From assembly GCA_040757595.1 (NCBI GenBank), contig JBFLWP010000005.1, forward strand, positions 62,001-126,000: DNA of 64,000 nucleotides, in the 5' to 3' direction. Positions 9,350 through 62,458 of this stretch are shown here, in pieces. Numbering within the stretch: position 1 is the stretch's first letter; each line of letters opens with the position of its first letter. A program made the position numbers and the translations under genes. This DNA is from Nitrospirota bacterium (GTDB lineage Bacteria > Nitrospirota > Nitrospiria > Nitrospirales > Nitrospiraceae). The notes beneath the pieces are model-generated. The model had not been told where the DNA came from, searched no databases, and saw only the letters and a program-made list of their open reading frames with translations.

Positions 9350-9379
9350 TTGACAGAGGGGCGGGTTTTGCTCTACAAA
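9350..9379 (+). promoter_or_regulatory. Sigma70-type promoter of the first attenuator leader
   Basis: TTGACA at 9350-9355, an 18-base spacer, then TACAAA at 9374-9379. The predicted start near 9386 lies just before the first hairpin of the leader. The same layout (TTGACA, 18-base spacer) precedes the second leader. Confidence 0.6.
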
Positions 9380-9401
9380 CATCGCCATTGAGCTTGGCGC
9401 G

Positions 9402-9494
9402 GGGACGGTGCGACAACGGCGTCGCGTCCCGCTTGGCGACTTAGGACAACGGCGTCCTCTTGGTCCGGCATTCGGACCGGGAGGGCGTTTTTTT
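9402..9494 (+). promoter_or_regulatory. ANTAR-target-like double-hexaloop attenuator leader (1)
   Basis: Hairpin P1 has inner stem GCGAC/GUCGC around loop AACGGC (9415-9420) and outer stem GGGAC/GUCCC (9402-9430). Hairpin P2 has stem AGGAC/GUCCU around the same loop AACGGC (9448-9453). Both loops carry A at position 1 and G at position 4, the hallmark of ANTAR-protein targets. The 3' strand of P2 (9454-9458) is also part of the 5' strand of the following terminator, so the two structures exclude each other. The predicted action is that an ANTAR regulator binding P1/P2 prevents termination. The regulator is not in the window. Confidence 0.75.
9453..9494 (+). terminator. Intrinsic terminator in leader 1
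   Basis: A 15-bp hairpin with three G-U pairs: 9453-9467 pairs with 9473-9487 around loop GCATT, followed by seven T at 9488-9494. It lies upstream of the lipoprotein gene, so it acts as a conditional terminator. Confidence 0.88.
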
Positions 9495-9561: not shown

Positions 9562-9933
9562 ATGAGTCCCAGGATAGCGGTGATCCTGTTGCTCGCAGGG
9601 TTGCTCTGCGGCTGTGCCGCGTCATTTCGCGATGAGGCTCTGGTGAGAGACGCGATGCGGGAACGCGAGGCGGCCTATGCGGAACTCACCCAGGCCATGA
9701 CAACCTATTGCTCGGCGAGACATGCCTCGTTCGAAGCCAGACAAGCTTGCGAGATTGATAAGCGCCTGGAATTCTCGCGCTTCAATCCGGTGGAACGGAA
9801 GGCGGAAGAACCGCTCCCGACGGCTTCTGGCCTGAGGGGGAACGGGGCCCTTCCGTTCGTCAGATGTGAGCATGCCGGGGGGCGGGTGACCTGCCAACGG
9901 CTCTTCGCGGCATCACCGGGCGACCTGCACTAG
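9562..9933 (+). CDS. Small lipoprotein under attenuator control
   Basis: A 123-residue predicted lipoprotein (MSPRIAVILLLAGLLCGCAA, lipobox LLCGC). The mature part is unrecognised and has four cysteines besides the lipidated one. The ATG at 9562 is preceded by GGAG and gives a clean signal peptide. It is the only gene between leader 1 and a convergent gene, so the attenuator controls this lipoprotein alone. That links it to the same signal as the porin/urea-transport operon. A nitrogen-related envelope role is inference. Confidence 0.75.
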   Translation: MSPRIAVILLLAGLLCGCAASFRDEALVRDAMREREAAYAELTQAMTTYCSARHASFEARQACEIDKRLEFSRFNPVERKAEEPLPTASGLRGNGALPFVRCEHAGGRVTCQRLFAASPGDLH

Positions 9934-10466: not shown

Positions 10467-10496
10467 TTGACATGCTCGAAGCAGGAGGATTATAAG
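10467..10496 (+). promoter_or_regulatory. Sigma70-type promoter of the porin/urt operon
   Basis: TTGACA at 10467-10472, an 18-base spacer, then TATAAG at 10491-10496. Transcription would start near 10503, just ahead of the second leader. Confidence 0.7.
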
Positions 10497-10513
10497 CGGT
10501 TCGTCGCGCAGGG

Positions 10514-10625
10514 CCGACGGGCGGAGACAAGGGCGTCTCCGTTCGGAAGCGCGGCATCACAGAGGCACAAGGACAATGGCGTCCTTTTGGTCCAGTGGAG
10601 GACCGGAAGGGCGCCTTTCTTTTTT
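10514..10625 (+). promoter_or_regulatory. ANTAR-target-like double-hexaloop attenuator leader (2)
   Basis: P1 has stem GGAGAC/GUCUCC at 10523-10540 around loop AAGGGC, with an outer CCGA/UCGG helix. P2 has stem AAGGAC/GUCCUU at 10569-10586 around loop AAUGGC. Loop position 1 is A and position 4 is G in both. Across the two leaders all four loops read AANGGC closed by GAC/GUC, while the outer stem bases differ and stay paired. P2's 3' strand is reused by the terminator. It should control the porin and the downstream urea transporter. Confidence 0.8.
10578..10625 (+). terminator. Intrinsic terminator in leader 2
   Basis: A 16-bp hairpin pairing 10578-10593 with 10600-10615 (including G-U pairs) around a six-base loop, followed by TTTCTTTTTT. 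It lies about 70 bases before the porin start and is mutually exclusive with hairpin P2. Confidence 0.88.
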
Positions 10626-10696
10626 CTACAGGCCGCCCGCCGGTCGTGGTGTGCATTGGGGCGATGTTTGCCCAAAGACAGGAGGAGGGCGGCGAA

Positions 10697-12145
10697 ATGG
10701 AACGGGAAGGATGGAAGGGCAGCCGGGTGTGGCTGCTCGCCGTCGCGTTGGTCCTGCTTGCGGGACCGGTCGTTGCGGCGGAGAAAAGCGCGGAAGAGGC
10801 GGAGGGGGCCGGGCGGCTGCTGCGGAAGGAGCAGTCCCCGCCCAGCGGCCCGCAGCCGGGGGTTCCCGCAACGGGACAGGAGGTCGCGCCGCAAAAGGCG
10901 GAAGGAGCCGGGCAGCTCATCCGGGAGGAGGAGCACGGCCAGCACCTGTGCGCCGGCTGTTTGAGCACCCTGTACGAAGAGGGCAGCAAGGGGTCGCTCG
11001 AACCCTACGGCCGCGTCGAATTGGACGGGATCTACAGCAGCCGGAACAACAACCCCTTGGACCCGGGACAGTTCAACGGGTACGCCACCGCGGCGGGCAA
11101 GAACGCCAACGCGTCGAGCACGCTCAATCCCCGTTACAGCGTGTTCGGCGTCAAGGCCGAGCGGACGGACGGGAAGCACAGCCTGACCGGCGTGGTCGAA
11201 ATCGACTTCTACGGGCAGACGGACAACGCCGGCAACCTCCCGCCGCGTTTGCGCTTGGCCAACGTGAGGTACACCTACGACAAGACCAGCGTCACGGCCG
11301 GCATGGACTGGACGCCGATCATGTCGCTGCACCCGGATCTGATCGACTTCTCGATCATGGGCTACGGCGGCAACCTCTGGCAGCGTCTCCCGCAGGTCAC
11401 GGTGCGGCACCAGTTCAGCGAGAACGTCGAGGGGTTGCTCACGGTCCTGCGGTTCGAGCGCGGCCTGTCCGCGATCCAGACGAACCAGCAATCGAGACCG
11501 AGCCCCGGCGGGCCGTCCTGCACCGCGGGGAGCTTCGCGTCGAGCAACTGCGTCTTCAGCGATCCCGTGCAGCATCCCTACTATGGCGGCCGGTTGGCCT
11601 ATACCGGGACTGGGAACATGCAGGGCTTCATGATCGCCGGCAGCGTAGCCTACCGGTACTACCGGTCCGCTCCCATGCCCAGCAATGCGGCGTTTCAATC
11701 GGGCCGGGACATCAACTCCTACCTGATCGGCGGTGAGCTCGTGGTGCCGATCACCAAGACCTTGAAGTTCTCCGGCGAGATCGCCTATGGCCAGGCGCTG
11801 GGGGTCGAGTTCTTCCGGTACAACCAGGAGCTGAACCTGACGACCGGCAAGCCGATCCGGGCGATGATGGGCTGGGGCCAGCTCAGCTACGCGCCGGCCA
11901 AAGGCTATACCTTCCTGGCCGGCTACGGATTCGACAATCCGAACAAGGACGACCTGCAGGGCAGCACGACCAGCGTCGACGTCCAGTACCTCTCGAACCA
12001 GCGGATGTACGCGACGATGGTCAAGCAAATTTGGGCCGACTTCTACCTGGGCGCCGAGTTCCAGAACCTCTGGACGCAGTGGGCGGGCACCTTCGAGCGG
12101 TTCTCGGGACAGCAATACAACCTGTCGGTCTGGTACAACTTCTGA
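10697..12145 (+). CDS. Outer-membrane porin of the urea uptake operon
   Basis: A 482-residue protein with a signal peptide (SRVWLLAVALVLLAGPVVAA) and a short charged, helical N-terminal region. About 380 residues of alternating amphipathic strands follow, ending in aromatic YNF with the terminal Phe typical of beta-barrel outer-membrane proteins. The ATG at 10697 has GGAGG upstream. It is the first gene behind leader 2 and lies 32 bases before urtA, so it probably lets urea or related small amides through the outer membrane. Substrate specificity is inferred from context. Confidence 0.85.
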   Translation: MEREGWKGSRVWLLAVALVLLAGPVVAAEKSAEEAEGAGRLLRKEQSPPSGPQPGVPATGQEVAPQKAEGAGQLIREEEHGQHLCAGCLSTLYEEGSKGSLEPYGRVELDGIYSSRNNNPLDPGQFNGYATAAGKNANASSTLNPRYSVFGVKAERTDGKHSLTGVVEIDFYGQTDNAGNLPPRLRLANVRYTYDKTSVTAGMDWTPIMSLHPDLIDFSIMGYGGNLWQRLPQVTVRHQFSENVEGLLTVLRFERGLSAIQTNQQSRPSPGGPSCTAGSFASSNCVFSDPVQHPYYGGRLAYTGTGNMQGFMIAGSVAYRYYRSAPMPSNAAFQSGRDINSYLIGGELVVPITKTLKFSGEIAYGQALGVEFFRYNQELNLTTGKPIRAMMGWGQLSYAPAKGYTFLAGYGFDNPNKDDLQGSTTSVDVQYLSNQRMYATMVKQIWADFYLGAEFQNLWTQWAGTFERFSGQQYNLSVWYNF

Positions 12146-12177
12146 GCCGGGCCGAAGGCCTGGAAGGAGCGACAACC

Positions 12178-13551
12178 ATGAGCGAGATGGAACCGAAGAG
12201 CGCGAGCGAGCGAAACGACGGGCAGGGCGAATCCCACGGGCAGGGCCAATCCCGGCGCGAGTTCCTGGTCGCCGGCACCAGGACGGCCGCGGGCCTGGGC
12301 GTGGCGGCCCTGCTAGGGAACCTCGGAAACTGGGCCCTGTCCTACGCGGCGGACAAGGCGCCGATCAAGATCGGCGTGCTCCACTCGCTGAGCGGGACGA
12401 TGGCGATCAGCGAGGTCTCGCTGCGGGACGTGGTCCTGATGGCGGTGGAGGAGATCAACGCCAAGGGGGGCGTGCTGGGCCGCAAGATCCAGCCGGTCGT
12501 GGTGGACCCGGCCTCCAACTGGGATCTGTTCGCCGAGAAGGCCAAGCAACTGCTCCTCGTGGACAAGGTGGCGGTGGTGTTCGGCTGCTGGACTTCGGTG
12601 AGTCGGAAGTCCGTGCTGCCGGTCTTCGAGAAGAACAACGGGCTGCTCTTCTACCCCGTGCAGTATGAAGGGGAGGAGTGCTCCCACAACGTGTTCTATA
12701 CCGGGGCGGCGGTGAACCAGCAGGCCGTGCCGGCGGTGGAATACCTGATGAGCAAGGAGGGGGGCGGGTACAAGAAGTTCTACCTCCTCGGCAGCGATTA
12801 CGTGTACCCGCGCACGACGAACAAGATTTTGCGGGCCATGCTGCTGGCCAAGAAGGTGCCGCCGGCCAACATCATGGAGGAGTACACGCCGTTCCACCAC
12901 CAGGATTACCAGACCATCGTCGGGAAGATCAAAAAGTTCGCGGCGGGCGGCGGGGCCTGCGTGATCAGCACGATCAACGGCGACAGCAACGTGCCCTTCT
13001 ACAAGGAGTTCGCGAACCAGGGGCTGCGGGCGGAGGACGCGCCGATCATGGCCTTCAGCGTGGCGGAAGACGAGCTGCGCGGGATGGACACGACCGCGCT
13101 GGTCGGGCACCTGGCGGCCTGGAATTACTACCAGAGCGTGGACACGCCGCAGAACAAGCAGTTCGTGGCCAACTTCAAGGCCTACTGCAAGAAGAACAAC
13201 CTGCCGGACGGCGACAAGCGGGTCACGGACGATCCGATGGAGGCCGCCTATTTCGGCGTCCATATCTGGAAGCAGGCGGTGGAGAAGGCCGGCTCCACGG
13301 AAGTGGACAAGGTCCGCAAGGCGGTCTACGGGCAGAAGTTCCTGGCTCCCGGCGGGGAAATCAAGATGGATGAAGCGAACCACCACACCTGGAAGCCGGT
13401 GCTGATCGGGGAGATCCTGAAGGACGGCCAGTTCAAAATCGTGTCGCGCTCGAAAGGCCTGGTGAAGCCGGAGCCCTGGAGCGAGTACACGAATCCGGAC
13501 AAGGGGTGCGACTGGATCAAGCACCAGGGAACCTATCAGAAGAAGAAGTGA
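12178..13551 (+). CDS. urtA: Urea ABC transporter substrate-binding protein UrtA
   Basis: A 457-residue periplasmic binding protein with a twin-arginine signal (SRREFLVAG at residues 25-33) and a mature part starting near KIGVLHSLSGTMA. The conserved CWTSVSRKSVLPVFE and NGLLFYPVQYEG segments are typical of UrtA. It is related to the amide sensors AmiC and NasS. GGAAGGAG precedes the ATG at 12178. It delivers urea to UrtBC. A GC-rich hairpin follows directly downstream. Confidence 0.95.
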   Translation: MSEMEPKSASERNDGQGESHGQGQSRREFLVAGTRTAAGLGVAALLGNLGNWALSYAADKAPIKIGVLHSLSGTMAISEVSLRDVVLMAVEEINAKGGVLGRKIQPVVVDPASNWDLFAEKAKQLLLVDKVAVVFGCWTSVSRKSVLPVFEKNNGLLFYPVQYEGEECSHNVFYTGAAVNQQAVPAVEYLMSKEGGGYKKFYLLGSDYVYPRTTNKILRAMLLAKKVPPANIMEEYTPFHHQDYQTIVGKIKKFAAGGGACVISTINGDSNVPFYKEFANQGLRAEDAPIMAFSVAEDELRGMDTTALVGHLAAWNYYQSVDTPQNKQFVANFKAYCKKNNLPDGDKRVTDDPMEAAYFGVHIWKQAVEKAGSTEVDKVRKAVYGQKFLAPGGEIKMDEANHHTWKPVLIGEILKDGQFKIVSRSKGLVKPEPWSEYTNPDKGCDWIKHQGTYQKKK

Positions 13552-13563
13552 GTCATGGGGACG

Positions 13564-13595
13564 GGGGCGCCTCGCCTCGGCGGCGACGGCGCCCC
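13564..13595 (+). promoter_or_regulatory. GC-rich intercistronic hairpin between urtA and urtB
   Basis: GGGGCGCC (13564-13571) pairs with GGCGCCCC (13588-13595), and TCGCC with GGCGA inside, giving 13 bp with one bulged C and a five-base loop. No T tract follows. It probably protects the 3' end of the abundant urtA message or reduces read-through into urtB. Confidence 0.6.
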
Positions 13596-13622
13596 GGGTC
13601 CTTTCGCTGCGCGGACCAGGCG

Positions 13623-15179
13623 ATGACACGCATTTTCAGCACGTTGTTCGGAATGCTGCTCCTCCTCCTGGCCTGTTTCCCGGCCGGGGCGGAGGAGACG
13701 GCGACGGAGACGGAGATCGAGCAGGCCTTGGCCGACCTCTCCGGCCAGGACCAAGTCGCGCAGGAAGCGGCGGTCCGGACCCTGGTCGAGAGGGGGGAGG
13801 CAAGCCTCCTGCCGAGGCTGGAGGAACTCCGGCTCAGCGCCGACCGGAGCCTGCGGCTTCTCATCAAGCCGGTCATTGATCTGCTGAAGAGCCGGGCCAA
13901 TCTCGCGAGCGAGGATCCCGACACGAGGCGTTCCGCTGCGACCGACCTGGGGATGATGGGGAAGCCGGCCGCCATTCCCTGGCTGGAGGCGGCGCTGAAG
14001 ACGGAGCCGGACCGGTGGGTGCGCTATACGATCGAAGAGGCGATCGGTCTGCTCAGGCTGGCGAGCGACGATCCGGCGACGAAGGTCGCGGCGGCCACCA
14101 GGCTGGGCGAGCTCCGCAGCCAGAACGCCTTGCCGGCCTTGAAGGAGCTGGTGAGCGCGTCGGCGGTTCCCGTCGAGGGCCCTGCGCTCGGCGGGCAGGC
14201 AGCGCCACAAGGGCAAGGGGAAGTGGCGAAGGCCGCGGCCCAAGCGGTCGAGCGGATCGAAACCTGGGGAAGCTGGGTCAGCGCCATCGAGACCCTGTTC
14301 CGCGGGATCAGCCTGAGCTCGATTCTCCTGCTCATGGCCCTGGGCCTGGCCATCATCTTCGGCCTCATGGGCGTGATCAACATGGCCCACGGCGAGCTGA
14401 TGATGCTGGGGGCCTATGCGACCTTTCTCACCCAGGAAGGGTTCAAGGTCTATCTTCCGGCCGGTCTCTTCGACTATTATTTTCTCGCGGCCATGCCTTG
14501 CTCGTTCCTCGCGGCGGGGCTGTTCGGCCTGTTTCTGGAGGCGACGCTGATCCGGTTCCTCTACGGTCGGCCGCTGGAGACGCTGCTCGCGACCTGGGGC
14601 GTGAGCCTGATCCTCATTCAGGCGGCGCGGGTGATCTTCGGGGACTTGACGTCCGTGGTGGCGCCGAGCTGGCTGAGCGGCGGGGCCCAGGTCCTCGTGG
14701 GGGTGCAGTTGCCCTACAACCGGCTCTTCATCATCGCGCTCTCCGCGCTGTGCGTGGCCGGGATCTACCTGTTCCTGTTCAAAACCGGGATCGGGCTCAA
14801 GGTGCGCGCCGTCATGCAGAATCGCAGCATGAGCGCCTGCCTGGCCATCCCGACGAGAAAAGTGGACGCGTACACGTTCGCCTTCGGCTCCGGCCTGGCC
14901 GGTCTGGCCGGCTGCGCGCTGACGTTGATCGGCAACGTGGAGCCGGGGCTGGGCCAGAACTACATCGTGGACTCGTTCATGGTGGTCGTTACCGGCGGCG
15001 TCGGCAAGCTGGCCGGCACGATCGTCGCCGCGCTGGGCATCGGGGGGCTGAACAAGCTGCTCGAGCCCAGCTTCGGGGCCGTGTACGGCAAGGTCCTGAT
15101 CCTCGTCCTCGTGATCCTGTTCCTCCAGCGACGGCCGTCCGGTCTCTTCACGATCAAGGGACGGCAGCTCGAAACGTGA
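13623..15179 (+). CDS. urtB: Urea ABC transporter permease UrtB
   Basis: A 518-residue inner-membrane permease of the branched-chain amino acid (LivH) type. The N-terminus has a signal-like hydrophobic segment and about 190 periplasmic residues with HEAT-like helical repeats, as usual for UrtB. The channel region starts near SSILLLMALGLAIIFGLMGV, with the family signature GLMGVINMAHGELMMLGAY. The ATG at 13623 is the first start that yields the leader peptide. It forms the channel with UrtC. Confidence 0.93.
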   Translation: MTRIFSTLFGMLLLLLACFPAGAEETATETEIEQALADLSGQDQVAQEAAVRTLVERGEASLLPRLEELRLSADRSLRLLIKPVIDLLKSRANLASEDPDTRRSAATDLGMMGKPAAIPWLEAALKTEPDRWVRYTIEEAIGLLRLASDDPATKVAAATRLGELRSQNALPALKELVSASAVPVEGPALGGQAAPQGQGEVAKAAAQAVERIETWGSWVSAIETLFRGISLSSILLLMALGLAIIFGLMGVINMAHGELMMLGAYATFLTQEGFKVYLPAGLFDYYFLAAMPCSFLAAGLFGLFLEATLIRFLYGRPLETLLATWGVSLILIQAARVIFGDLTSVVAPSWLSGGAQVLVGVQLPYNRLFIIALSALCVAGIYLFLFKTGIGLKVRAVMQNRSMSACLAIPTRKVDAYTFAFGSGLAGLAGCALTLIGNVEPGLGQNYIVDSFMVVVTGGVGKLAGTIVAALGIGGLNKLLEPSFGAVYGKVLILVLVILFLQRRPSGLFTIKGRQLET

Positions 15180-15191
15180 TCGGCAGCGCTG

Positions 15192-15265
15192 GTCATGCGT
15201 CATCCGTCACTGGTCGTTCGCGGGAAAGCGACGCTCTGATTTGCGAATGACGGATGACGCATGAC
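15192..15265. repeat. Perfect 18-bp inverted repeat cassette between urtB and urtC
   Basis: GTCATGCGTCATCCGTCA at 15192-15209 is the exact reverse complement of 15248-15265, with a 38-base loop. Each arm is built from the word GTCATNCGTCA. It is the cleanest example of the short-word cassettes in the window. Confidence 0.85.
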
Positions 15266-15283
15266 GATTCCCCCGAGAACGGC

Positions 15284-16432
15284 ATGACACAGTCGGATCT
15301 GAACGCCCGGGCCCAGGATGGCGAACGGCACCGAGAAGGCCTGTCCTTCTGGCTGGCCGGCTTCCTGCTGCTCCTCGTCCTGCCCCTGTTGAACGTGCTG
15401 CCCGGACCGGACTCCTGGCTGTACGTCTCGGATTTCACGCTGAACCGGTTCGGCAAGTTCCTGGCCTTCGCGATTCTCGCACTCGGCCTGGACCTCATCT
15501 GGGGCTATACGGGCATCCTGAGCCTGGGGCACGGAGTGTTCTTTGGGCTGGGGGCCTACGCGATCGGCATGCACCTGATGCTCTCGATCGGCACCGAGAG
15601 CGTCTACGGCAGCACGTTGCCGGACTTCATGGTCTGGAACCAGGTCAAGGATCTGCCGCTCTTCTGGAAGCCCTTCTACAGCTTCGGGGTCGCCGCAGTC
15701 GCGGCGATCCTGCTGCCGACGTTGTTCGCCCTCGTCTTCGGCTTCCTGGCCTTCCGCAGCCGCATCCGCGGCGTCTACTTCTCGATCATCACCCAGGCCC
15801 TGGCCCTCTCGGCCTGGCTGGTGTTCAACCGGAACGAGACGAACTTGGGCGGCACCAACGGGCTGACCGACTTCAAAACCGTGCTCGGATTCCGTCTGAG
15901 CGATCCGGGAACGCAGCGGGCCCTCTACGTCCTGACCGTCCTTTGCCTGGGCGCCTCGTATCTCCTCTGCCGCTGGATCATCCGGTCCCGGACCGGCAAG
16001 GTGCTGGTGGCGATCCGAGACAGCGAGCAACGGGTGCTCTTCTCCGGGTATTCGCCGGCCAACTTCAAACTGTTCGTCTTCGTGGTTTCGGCGGCGCTGG
16101 CCGGTCTGGCCGGCGCGCTCTACGTGCCGCAGGTGGGAATCATCACGCCGGCTCAGATCGGCGTCCTCCCGTCGATCGAGATGGTGATCTGGGTGGCGGT
16201 CGGCGGGCGCGGCACCCTGGCCGGCGCGGTGCTGGGCGCGGTCGGCGTGAACTGGGCGCGGAGCGTGCTGACCAACTCGTTCCCCGACCTCTGGCCGTTT
16301 TTCCTGGGCGGGCTCTTCGTCGCGGTCGTCCTCCTGTTTCCGGAAGGGCTCGTGGGGGTGATCCGCAAGCTTGGCGCCGGCTGGATCGGCTCCAGCCGTT
16401 CGGTGGTGCCGGCCGCTGAACGGCAGTCATGA
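15284..16432 (+). CDS. urtC: Urea ABC transporter permease UrtC
   Basis: About 382 residues, LivM-type permease with roughly ten membrane helices. It has LGLDLIWGYTGILSLGHGVFFGLGAY and the EAA-like loop around IRDSEQRVLFSGY. I place the start at ATG 15284. An in-frame ATG at 15254 lies inside the right arm of the inverted repeat and would add ten repeat-encoded residues. Confidence 0.92.
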   Translation: MTQSDLNARAQDGERHREGLSFWLAGFLLLLVLPLLNVLPGPDSWLYVSDFTLNRFGKFLAFAILALGLDLIWGYTGILSLGHGVFFGLGAYAIGMHLMLSIGTESVYGSTLPDFMVWNQVKDLPLFWKPFYSFGVAAVAAILLPTLFALVFGFLAFRSRIRGVYFSIITQALALSAWLVFNRNETNLGGTNGLTDFKTVLGFRLSDPGTQRALYVLTVLCLGASYLLCRWIIRSRTGKVLVAIRDSEQRVLFSGYSPANFKLFVFVVSAALAGLAGALYVPQVGIITPAQIGVLPSIEMVIWVAVGGRGTLAGAVLGAVGVNWARSVLTNSFPDLWPFFLGGLFVAVVLLFPEGLVGVIRKLGAGWIGSSRSVVPAAERQS

Positions 16433-16506: not shown

Positions 16507-17280
16507 ATGACCGAACGGGGCTCGATCATCTATCTGGATGGCGTGACCGTTGATTTCGACGGCTTCAAAGCCCTCCGGGACCTGAACTTCATCGTGAACT
16601 ATCACGAGCTCCGCGTCGTGATCGGCCCCAACGGGGCCGGCAAAACCACGCTGCTCGACGTCGTCTCGGGCAAGGTCAAGCCCGTCTCGGGCCGCGTCAT
16701 CTTCGGGAAGGACACGGACCTGGTTCCGCTGCGGGAGCACGAGATCGCCGGCTTGGGGATCGGGCGCAAGTTCCAGACCCCGTCGGTCTACGGCAACCTC
16801 ACGGTCTGGGAGAATCTGGATCTGTCCCTCCGCCGGACGAGCAGAGGGGTCTTTGCGACGCTCTGGGCCAGGTCCAGCCGGGCGGAGGGCGAAAAAGTCG
16901 AGGAAGTGTTGGAGACGATCGGGCTGACCGAGAAGCGGCACGTCCGGGCCGGGGCCTTGTCGCACGGGGAGAAACAGTGGCTGGAGATCGGCATGGTGCT
17001 GCTTCAGGACCCGGCGCTGCTCCTCGTGGACGAGCCGGTGGCCGGCATGACCGACCAGGAGACCGAACGGACCGGGCAGCTCCTCCAGTCGCTGGCCGAT
17101 CGCCATTCGATCATCGTGATCGAGCACGACATGGAGTTCGTGCGGCAGATCGCCAAGACCGTCACGGTCCTGCACGAAGGGGCCGTGCTGTGCGAGGGGC
17201 CGGTGGAGACGATCCAGTCGGACCCGCGGGTGGTGGAGATCTACCTGGGCCGCCAAAAAGAGGCGCATGCCCGAGCGTGA
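16507..17280 (+). CDS. urtD: Urea ABC transporter ATP-binding protein UrtD
   Basis: A 257-residue ABC ATPase of the LivG type. Walker A is GPNGAGKTTLLD, the signature is LSHGEKQWLEIG, Walker B is ALLLVDEPVAGM, and the switch His is in IVIEHDMEFV. LSHGEKQWLEI in place of the canonical LSGGQ is normal for UrtD. It couples ATP hydrolysis to urea import with UrtE. Confidence 0.95.
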   Translation: MTERGSIIYLDGVTVDFDGFKALRDLNFIVNYHELRVVIGPNGAGKTTLLDVVSGKVKPVSGRVIFGKDTDLVPLREHEIAGLGIGRKFQTPSVYGNLTVWENLDLSLRRTSRGVFATLWARSSRAEGEKVEEVLETIGLTEKRHVRAGALSHGEKQWLEIGMVLLQDPALLLVDEPVAGMTDQETERTGQLLQSLADRHSIIVIEHDMEFVRQIAKTVTVLHEGAVLCEGPVETIQSDPRVVEIYLGRQKEAHARA

Positions 17281-17357: not shown

Positions 17358-18065
17358 GTGCTTAAACTCGATAACCTGAACGTCTATTACGGGGAGAGCC
17401 ACATTCTCCGGAATGTCTCGCTGGGGGTCGGGCCGGGACAGGTGGTCTGCCTCATGGGACGAAACGGGGTCGGCAAGACCACCCTGCTCAAGACGATCAT
17501 GGGGCTCCTGCCATCCCGGACCGGACGCGTCCAGTTCGACGGGACGGACGTTTCGCAGGAATCCCCGGATCGCCGGGTCCGACGGGGCATCGCGTACGTT
17601 CCGCAGGGGCGCGAGATCTTCCCGCACCTCACGGTCCGTGAGAACCTGCGGCTCGGCTACGAAGCGGGCGCGACGAAGAACGGGAATCAGGAGAAGGACG
17701 CGTTCGACGAGGTCTTCGCCCTGTTCCCGGCCCTGGCCTCGATGCTGGACCGGGCGGGAGGCGTCCTCAGCGGCGGGCAGCAGCAGCAATTGGCGATCGG
17801 GCGGGCCCTGCTCTCACGGCCCAAGCTGCTCCTCCTGGACGAGCCGACCGAGGGGATCCAGCCCTCCATCGTCGAGCAGATCGAGCAGGTGATCGAGGGC
17901 TTCAAGGAGCGGCGGCGGTTCGCGATCCTGCTGGTCGAGCAGTACATGGAGTTCGCGGCGCGGCTGGCCGATTCCTACGTCATCATGGCCAAAGGGGCGG
18001 TGGTGGCGTCGGGGCGGACGTCGGAGTTGAGCGAGGAGCAGGTCAAGCGGCATTTGATCGTGTGA
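17358..18065 (+). CDS. urtE: Urea ABC transporter ATP-binding protein UrtE
   Basis: A 235-residue ABC ATPase of the LivF type. Walker A is GRNGVGKTTLLK, the signature is LSGGQQQQLAIGRAL, Walker B is LLLLDEPTEGIQPS, and the H-loop residue is replaced as usual in this family (LLVEQYMEF). The start is a GTG at 17358. It is the last transporter gene, and ureA follows 132 bases downstream behind its own promoter-like sequence. Confidence 0.95.
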   Translation: MLKLDNLNVYYGESHILRNVSLGVGPGQVVCLMGRNGVGKTTLLKTIMGLLPSRTGRVQFDGTDVSQESPDRRVRRGIAYVPQGREIFPHLTVRENLRLGYEAGATKNGNQEKDAFDEVFALFPALASMLDRAGGVLSGGQQQQLAIGRALLSRPKLLLLDEPTEGIQPSIVEQIEQVIEGFKERRRFAILLVEQYMEFAARLADSYVIMAKGAVVASGRTSELSEEQVKRHLIV

Positions 18066-19070: not shown

Positions 19071-20797
<1,727 letters not shown>

Positions 20798-61826: not shown

Positions 61827-62458
61827 GCGTCGTCAAGGTCAAGATCTGCGGGATCACGAACCGGGAGGACGCAAGGGCCGCGGTTGAGGCTGGCGCCGAT
61901 GCCCTGGGGTTCATTTTCCATCGGGAGAGCCCCCGGTACGTGGAAGCCGATGTCGTCTGCCGGATCGTGGCCGGGCTGCCGCCATTCGTCCTGCCGGTCG
62001 GGGTCTTCGTGAACGAGGACCTCAAGAAGGTTCGCGACCTCATGGATGGTTGCGGGCTGGCCCTGGCCCAGTTGCACGGAGAGGAGACCTCGGCCTACTG
62101 CGAATCCCTGGGCCGGCCGGTCATGAAGGGCCTGAGACTTCGCGACCGGGGGAGCCTGCTCGCTCTCGCGGAATACAAGGGCCGCGCGCTTGTCCGGGCC
62201 TTCGTCGTGGACGCCTTCTCCCAGGCCGCCTACGGGGGGACCGGGCAGGTGGCTGACTGGAACCTGGCCGCGGAAGTTGCGCGGAGCGCGCCGGTCCTGC
62301 TGGCCGGCGGACTCACCGCTCAGAACGTAGGAGAGGCGATCAGGCAAGTCCGGCCCTACGGGGTGGACGTGAGCAGCGGGGTGGAGGCCAGCCCGGGCAG
62401 GAAGGATCCGGCCAGGATCGCGGCGTTCATCCAGGCGGTAAAACTTGCGTCCACCTGA
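61823..62458 (+). CDS. trpF: Phosphoribosylanthranilate isomerase TrpF
   Basis: A 211-residue TIM barrel. It begins VKICGITNREDARAAVEAGAD with the catalytic Cys, and has the Asp in FVVDAFSQAAYGGTGQ. LLAGGLTAQNVGEAI and GVDVSSGVEASPGRKDPARI are the phosphate-binding loops. It follows the methyltransferase with an ATGA overlap. Confidence 0.95.
   Translation: MSVVKVKICGITNREDARAAVEAGADALGFIFHRESPRYVEADVVCRIVAGLPPFVLPVGVFVNEDLKKVRDLMDGCGLALAQLHGEETSAYCESLGRPVMKGLRLRDRGSLLALAEYKGRALVRAFVVDAFSQAAYGGTGQVADWNLAAEVARSAPVLLAGGLTAQNVGEAIRQVRPYGVDVSSGVEASPGRKDPARIAAFIQAVKLAST

Follow-up and report, generated by a model that had tools for sequence, protein, structure and literature searches.

A GAF-GAF-ANTAR protein and paired-hairpin leaders probably control porin-urtABCDE and other nitrogen-supply genes in Nitrospiraceae

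How does a Nitrospirota bacterium switch on its urea-uptake genes? To our knowledge, the control of nitrogen acquisition in nitrite-oxidising and comammox Nitrospira is hardly understood. The locus that raises the question lies in a window of 64,000 nucleotides (positions 62,001 to 126,000 of contig JBFLWP010000005.1, assembly GCA_040757595.1), from whose first letter window coordinates are counted here. The operon is on the plus strand and begins with an outer-membrane porin of 482 amino acids (10697-12145), which is assigned by context and has no Pfam or NCBIfam match. The porin is followed by urtA, the binding protein of a urea ABC transporter (12121-13551; TIGR03407 above cut-off), urtB, a permease with N-terminal HEAT repeats (HEAT_2) ahead of the permease domain (13578-15179; TIGR03409 above cut-off), urtC, a permease (15254-16432; BPD_transp_2 and operon position), and the ATPases urtD (16507-17280) and urtE (17358-18065), both assigned from ABC_tran matches and operon position. 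The window also has a match to the Rfam 5' ureB sRNA family (RF02514, 86.5 bits, 19217-19512, minus strand) antisense to the urease large-subunit gene, which probably reflects coding conservation.

The original prediction placed an ANTAR-type antitermination leader before the porin gene, and its promoter, both hairpins with their hexaloops, 16-bp terminator and shared arm all proved correct to the position. The promoter, TTGACA-18-TATAAG (10467-10496, plus strand, like all features of this leader), was checked letter by letter; TTGACA occupies 10467-10472 and TATAAG 10491-10496, with a spacer of 18 nt. By its sequence this is a strong sigma-70-type promoter, and transcription is predicted to start near 10503. 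Hairpin 1, the putative recruitment hairpin, has its core at 10523-10540 and the hexaloop AAGGGC at 10529-10534; it is supported by the fold and by covariation in relatives, and reaches -13.6 kcal/mol when its outer pairs are included. A 28-nt linker (10541-10568) separates it from hairpin 2, the putative antiterminator (10569-10586, hexaloop AATGGC at 10575-10580, -6.5 kcal/mol). The intrinsic terminator (10578-10626) consists of a 16-bp stem (10578-10615, -29.9 kcal/mol) and, directly 3' of it, TTTCTTTTTT, a T tract with one interrupting C. It is supported by folding, by conservation in relatives and by a terminator scan that recovered it. As the 5' arm of the terminator contains the whole 3' arm of hairpin 2, 10581-10586 (10569-10586 overlapping 10578-10615), the two structures are mutually exclusive. 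The 141-nt leader folds with z = -4.35, and none of 200 shuffles was equally stable. The Shine-Dalgarno region of the porin gene is at 10680-10689.

The window holds a second complete ANTAR-type leader (9350-9489, plus strand), which was absent from the original prediction. Its promoter is TTGACA-18-TACAAA (9350-9379), both hairpin 1 (9410-9425) and hairpin 2 (9443-9458) have the loop AACGGC, and a terminator found by the terminator scan (9451-9489) overlaps hairpin 2. Our covariance model matches this leader with E 4e-9, the leader being part of the training set. Downstream is a gene for a small lipoprotein-like product of 123 amino acids (9562-9933, plus strand; no Pfam or NCBIfam match).

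The leader is conserved among relatives. We searched for the porin in 100 related genomes and found it in 26, and about 25 readable Nitrospiraceae genomes carry the same leader upstream of porin-urt, in the orthologous place. In an alignment of 27 leaders from porin and lipoprotein genes, A1 and G4 are invariant in the loops of both hairpins; lack of loop conservation in related strains, which the original prediction had named as evidence against itself, was thus not seen. Inner stem pairs do not vary, and compensatory changes occur in the outer pairs of hairpin 1, with 33 cells changed on both sides compared with 15.5 in shuffles, and none of 500 shuffles attained the covariation score. Covariation was also found in a wider set of 34 leaders, selected partly by motif. 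TTGACA is exact and followed by a spacer of 17-18 nt in all 26 leaders with readable upstream DNA, and the loop-to-loop distance in relatives is 33-49 nt. A search of Rfam returned no matching family for the leader; a covariance model built from the 27 leaders does match. Twenty-six of 28 porin records from named GTDB genomes are labelled Nitrospira, Nitrospirae, Nitrospirota or Nitrospiraceae and one is labelled Nitrosospira; the leader model has a match in 24 of the 27 that were searched.

Which protein might act on such a leader? The absence of any ANTAR-domain protein would have spoken against the original prediction, and the source genome has exactly one ANTAR match (G000:C1:52272-52427, minus strand, E 5.7e-22). 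It belongs to a protein of 421 amino acids in which two GAF domains precede a C-terminal ANTAR domain. The ANTAR domain scores 76.3 bits against PF03861 (curated cut-off 27.3) and aligns with the solved ANTAR domains of EutV (6wsh), NasR (4akk), Rv1626 and AmiR. As read from the alignment, the protein retains R142, K143, E146, K149, E160, M172 and R175 of EutV, has F in place of Y164, and differs at R168, N173 and R177. The roles of the compared residues in RNA binding have been described for EutV (PMC8934654), and the change of three RNA-contact residues counts against our best explanation.

The receiver domain of the NasT/AmiR/EutV REC-ANTAR type is absent from this protein, which has the two GAF domains instead; no second ANTAR protein was found in the genome, and no Pfam match to the NIT nitrate-sensing domain of the NasR type was found in this one. 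Thus, the NasT/AmiR-type regulator that had been expected gives way to a one-component GAF-GAF-ANTAR protein. The first GAF domain is most like those of PtsP and NifA, and the PtsP GAF domain binds glutamine (PMC4848567). The second GAF domain weakly matches the nitrate sensor NreA, far under the cut-off. Sixteen relatives have the ANTAR gene on the same strand as the porin and 1-2.5 kb upstream. In the source genome it is on a different contig from porin-urt, directly before nadE-amt, and this separation counts against our best explanation.

The ANTAR gene and the leaders have also been lost together. In genus g6, six ammonia monooxygenase (AMO)-positive genomes have neither the ANTAR gene nor a leader or T tract before nadE. 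They have kept nadE itself, which directly follows aroB, where relatives have the ANTAR gene and leader, and the motif is absent from these genomes except for one chance-like match in G034. Two AMO-negative genomes of the same genus retain both ANTAR and the motif. In genus g10, five AMO-positive genomes retain ANTAR, and leaders were found in G036, G041, G056 and G059. The complete ANTAR-positive genome G053 is the fifth; no leader was found in it, which counts against our best explanation. The six AMO-positive g6 genomes are probably comammox clade A, and the distribution agrees with clade A having lost the system and clade B having kept it, the clade names being our own inference. The joint loss was probably a single event in one clade, which also counts against our best explanation. 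Of the family's genomes with a completeness of 90% or more, 40 of 41 with ANTAR and 0 of 6 without it have leaders (hypergeometric 6.5e-7, a value that takes no account of descent; the six form one clade); these leaders were scored by the model or manually, with manual checks in chosen genomes. In family f2 of the order, ANTAR is present and the leader model has no matches, and this too counts against our best explanation.

The covariance model finds three sites in the source genome, before porin-urt, before the small lipoprotein gene (window 9406-9462) and before a gene for a hybrid histidine kinase. The porin-urt and lipoprotein leaders were in the training set, whereas the kinase leader (L095, G000:C12:34378-34446, minus strand) is an independent find; it precedes a dCache-PAS-GAF hybrid histidine kinase, and a similar kinase and leader occur in G041. 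A relaxed pattern adds a fourth leader, before nadE-amt (G000:C1:52115-52180, minus strand). Its loop 2, GACGAC, lacks A1, which relatives retain, and this counts against our best explanation. Other pattern matches in the source genome, C1:165952 and C4:139687, were rejected as chance-like, a control giving two as well, and the match at C3:30347 was also chance-like.

Among relatives, leaders were found ahead of porin-urt, urt with a different porin, nadE-amt-glnB, nrt-cynS, amt, an FNT-type transporter, the lipoprotein gene and a kinase gene; urtA, urtB, nadE and amt were tested with models, and glnB, glnD, glnA, nrt, cynS and FNT were named by eye from the sequence. G001 has four leaders in a region of about 40 kb that also holds the ANTAR gene, urt, urease, nadE-amt-glnB-glnD-glnA, nrt-cynS and amt. 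The model is insensitive at its cut-off of E 0.01, and missed G010, G011, G029, G054 and G057, each of which has a nadE leader. We also observed two pairs of ANTAR-like hairpins in series in each of two genomes (L113, G009:C11:85939-86112, minus strand; G011:C1:1731431-1731588), the G009 set preceding a nitrate/nitrite-type transporter gene. Judged by the genes that it precedes, the switch is not urea-specific. As the regulon concerns nitrogen supply in general, the signal points to the nitrogen status of the cell and not to urea. The UrtA/AmiC/NasS-like sensor that had been suggested is not supported by these results: the putative regulator is a one-component protein, its first GAF domain is like those of PtsP and NifA, and the regulon serves general nitrogen supply.

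Based on these findings, we propose a model for the porin-urt leader. We consider it highly probable that this is an ANTAR antitermination leader and that the GAF-GAF-ANTAR protein, on nitrogen shortage, drives read-through here and across the regulon. RNA synthesis would begin near 10503 and, by default, stop at the terminator (10578-10626). When the cell is short of nitrogen, the GAF-GAF-ANTAR protein would become competent to bind RNA; by analogy with EutV and NasR, hairpin 1 would recruit it and it would then stabilise hairpin 2. A stabilised hairpin 2 would block the terminator, since its 3' arm belongs to the terminator's 5' arm. The terminator would thus fail to form in time and RNA polymerase would proceed into porin-urtABCDE. 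The leaders of the other nitrogen-supply genes may be switched by the same protein. ANTAR-type dual-hairpin control of porin-urtABCDE, the core of the original prediction, is supported by the architecture, the conservation of A1 and G4 and the ANTAR gene in the genome. From GAF similarity and the gene set, our guess is that the signal is nitrogen status, perhaps read as glutamine or 2-oxoglutarate, and that this is more likely than urea.

The same leader and protein could respond to a specific nitrogen compound, such as urea, nitrite, nitrate or cyanate, instead of general status. There is precedent in the sensor domain of NasR, which senses nitrate directly (PMC7496416), and the distant resemblance of the second GAF domain to NreA, below the cut-off as it is, leans the same way. 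However, the targets comprise uptake of urea, ammonium and nitrite/cyanate, NAD synthesis and PII, which no single substrate fits, and the first GAF domain resembles PtsP and NifA. We therefore regard a specific compound as unlikely.

Much less likely is a leader that acts as an ordinary attenuator or a constitutive terminator under another regulator (for example, the receiver output of the hybrid kinase, Rho or ribosome events), with hairpins that ANTAR proteins do not recognise. Unsystematic inspection brought no conserved leader peptide to notice. The ANTAR-positive genome G053, with no leader detected, would suit this explanation, but it does not account for loops in which A1 and G4 are invariant while the stems covary, for the linkage of the ANTAR gene to the porin, or for the joint loss of gene and leader. 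The idea that chance placed the hairpins beside an ordinary terminator draws on the frequency of lone A1/G4 hexaloop hairpins in G+C-rich DNA. It is in effect already excluded by conservation in about 25 genomes, by a pattern control near zero (1 control match compared with 30 matches in 22 genomes) and by the model E of 1e-11 in the source genome, for a model whose training leaders included that of the window.

The porin leaders may hold a further element, again absent from the original prediction. Segment X (GCCCGCCGGTC, 10635-10645, plus strand) lies downstream of the T tract, is complementary to the 3' arm of the terminator, and could form a third pairing in read-through RNA. It is conserved in porin leaders and is not found in other leaders. 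Of 23 porin leaders tested for pairing of X with the terminator 3' arm, 22 had z values between about -2 and -6.6, compared with a range of -1.9 to 1.6 for 18 leaders of other genes. Only base composition was preserved in the shuffles, and the z values of the porin leaders are not independent, as these leaders are related to one another. Alternatively, segment X could pair with the Shine-Dalgarno region. If X otherwise pairs there, ANTAR binding would also open translation of the porin. With constrained folding, the Shine-Dalgarno region became more accessible in L006, L016, L020, L021 and L029, but not in others, including the window leader. Thus, a three-state switch, in which the freed terminator 3' arm pairs with X so that ANTAR binding both prevents termination and opens porin translation, is a tentative idea that we think is probably wrong. 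Such coupling of antitermination and translation via X is not described in the ANTAR papers covered here.

If our model is correct, one RNA-binding protein and its easily recognised leaders would give a testable nitrogen regulon in these nitrifiers. The regulon includes urea and cyanate supply, the basis of cross-feeding with ammonia oxidisers. A function would be assigned to a GAF-GAF-ANTAR protein. The two groups of complete nitrifiers differ in regulation, one having lost the ANTAR gene and leaders and the other mostly retaining both. The island seen in G001 corresponds to the nitrogen assimilation cluster that a review describes for canonical Nitrospira (amt, glnA, glnB, glnD, nadE, cynS, nirC, urt and ure), parts of which are absent in comammox (Koch review, PMC6311188). 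In the parts of the review covered here, no ANTAR regulator or leader is named for this cluster. More widely, the open-access literature searched, apart from the supplementary tables of the 2012 survey, gave no link between ANTAR and Nitrospira.

Among known systems, the EutV-controlled eutP leaders of Enterococcus faecalis are alike in having two hexaloop hairpins with conserved A1 and G4, the second overlapping an intrinsic terminator (PMC3369931, PMC8934654). The ANTAR domains are homologous, with most RNA-contact residues kept and three changed; however, EutV is a REC-ANTAR two-component regulator with an ethanolamine regulon, whereas here a GAF-GAF-ANTAR protein would serve a nitrogen-supply regulon. 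The linker also differs, being 28 nt here and 5-12 nt in the E. faecalis eut leaders, where induction in vivo was much weaker with a 14-nt linker and antitermination in vitro was eliminated by adding 20 nt (PMC3369931, PMC8934654). That our linker exceeds the EutV-type range counts against our best explanation. Nevertheless, the general search motif of Ramesh 2012 permits a variable linker (PMC3369931), so the long linker is a difference that does not disqualify the leader from the wider ANTAR family.

The NasR-controlled nasF leader of Klebsiella oxytoca (PMC7496416) is similar in that a one-component sensor-ANTAR protein controls nitrogen assimilation by paired-hairpin antitermination, but NasR has a NIT nitrate-sensing domain, whereas the protein described here has two GAF domains and a broad putative regulon. 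Also similar are the nitrogen regulons under ANTAR control that were predicted for Desulfotomaculum and Pelobacter, with several leaders per genome before nitrogen genes (PMC3369931). These lie outside the phylum, their regulator is not known to be GAF-GAF-ANTAR, and segment X is not described in the parts of the survey covered here. The ANTAR targets listed in the survey include PII, transporters for ammonium and for urea, and glutamine synthetase, and GAF-ANTAR proteins are treated there as uncharacterised (PMC3369931). A urea transporter under ANTAR control, which the original prediction had offered as new to this phylum, thus falls in a target class that was already listed in 2012, while its link to Nitrospira is unreported in the open-access literature covered. 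Compared with these systems, the Nitrospira regulon, the GAF-GAF type of regulator, its loss in one comammox group, the long linker and the porin-specific segment X appear to be new.
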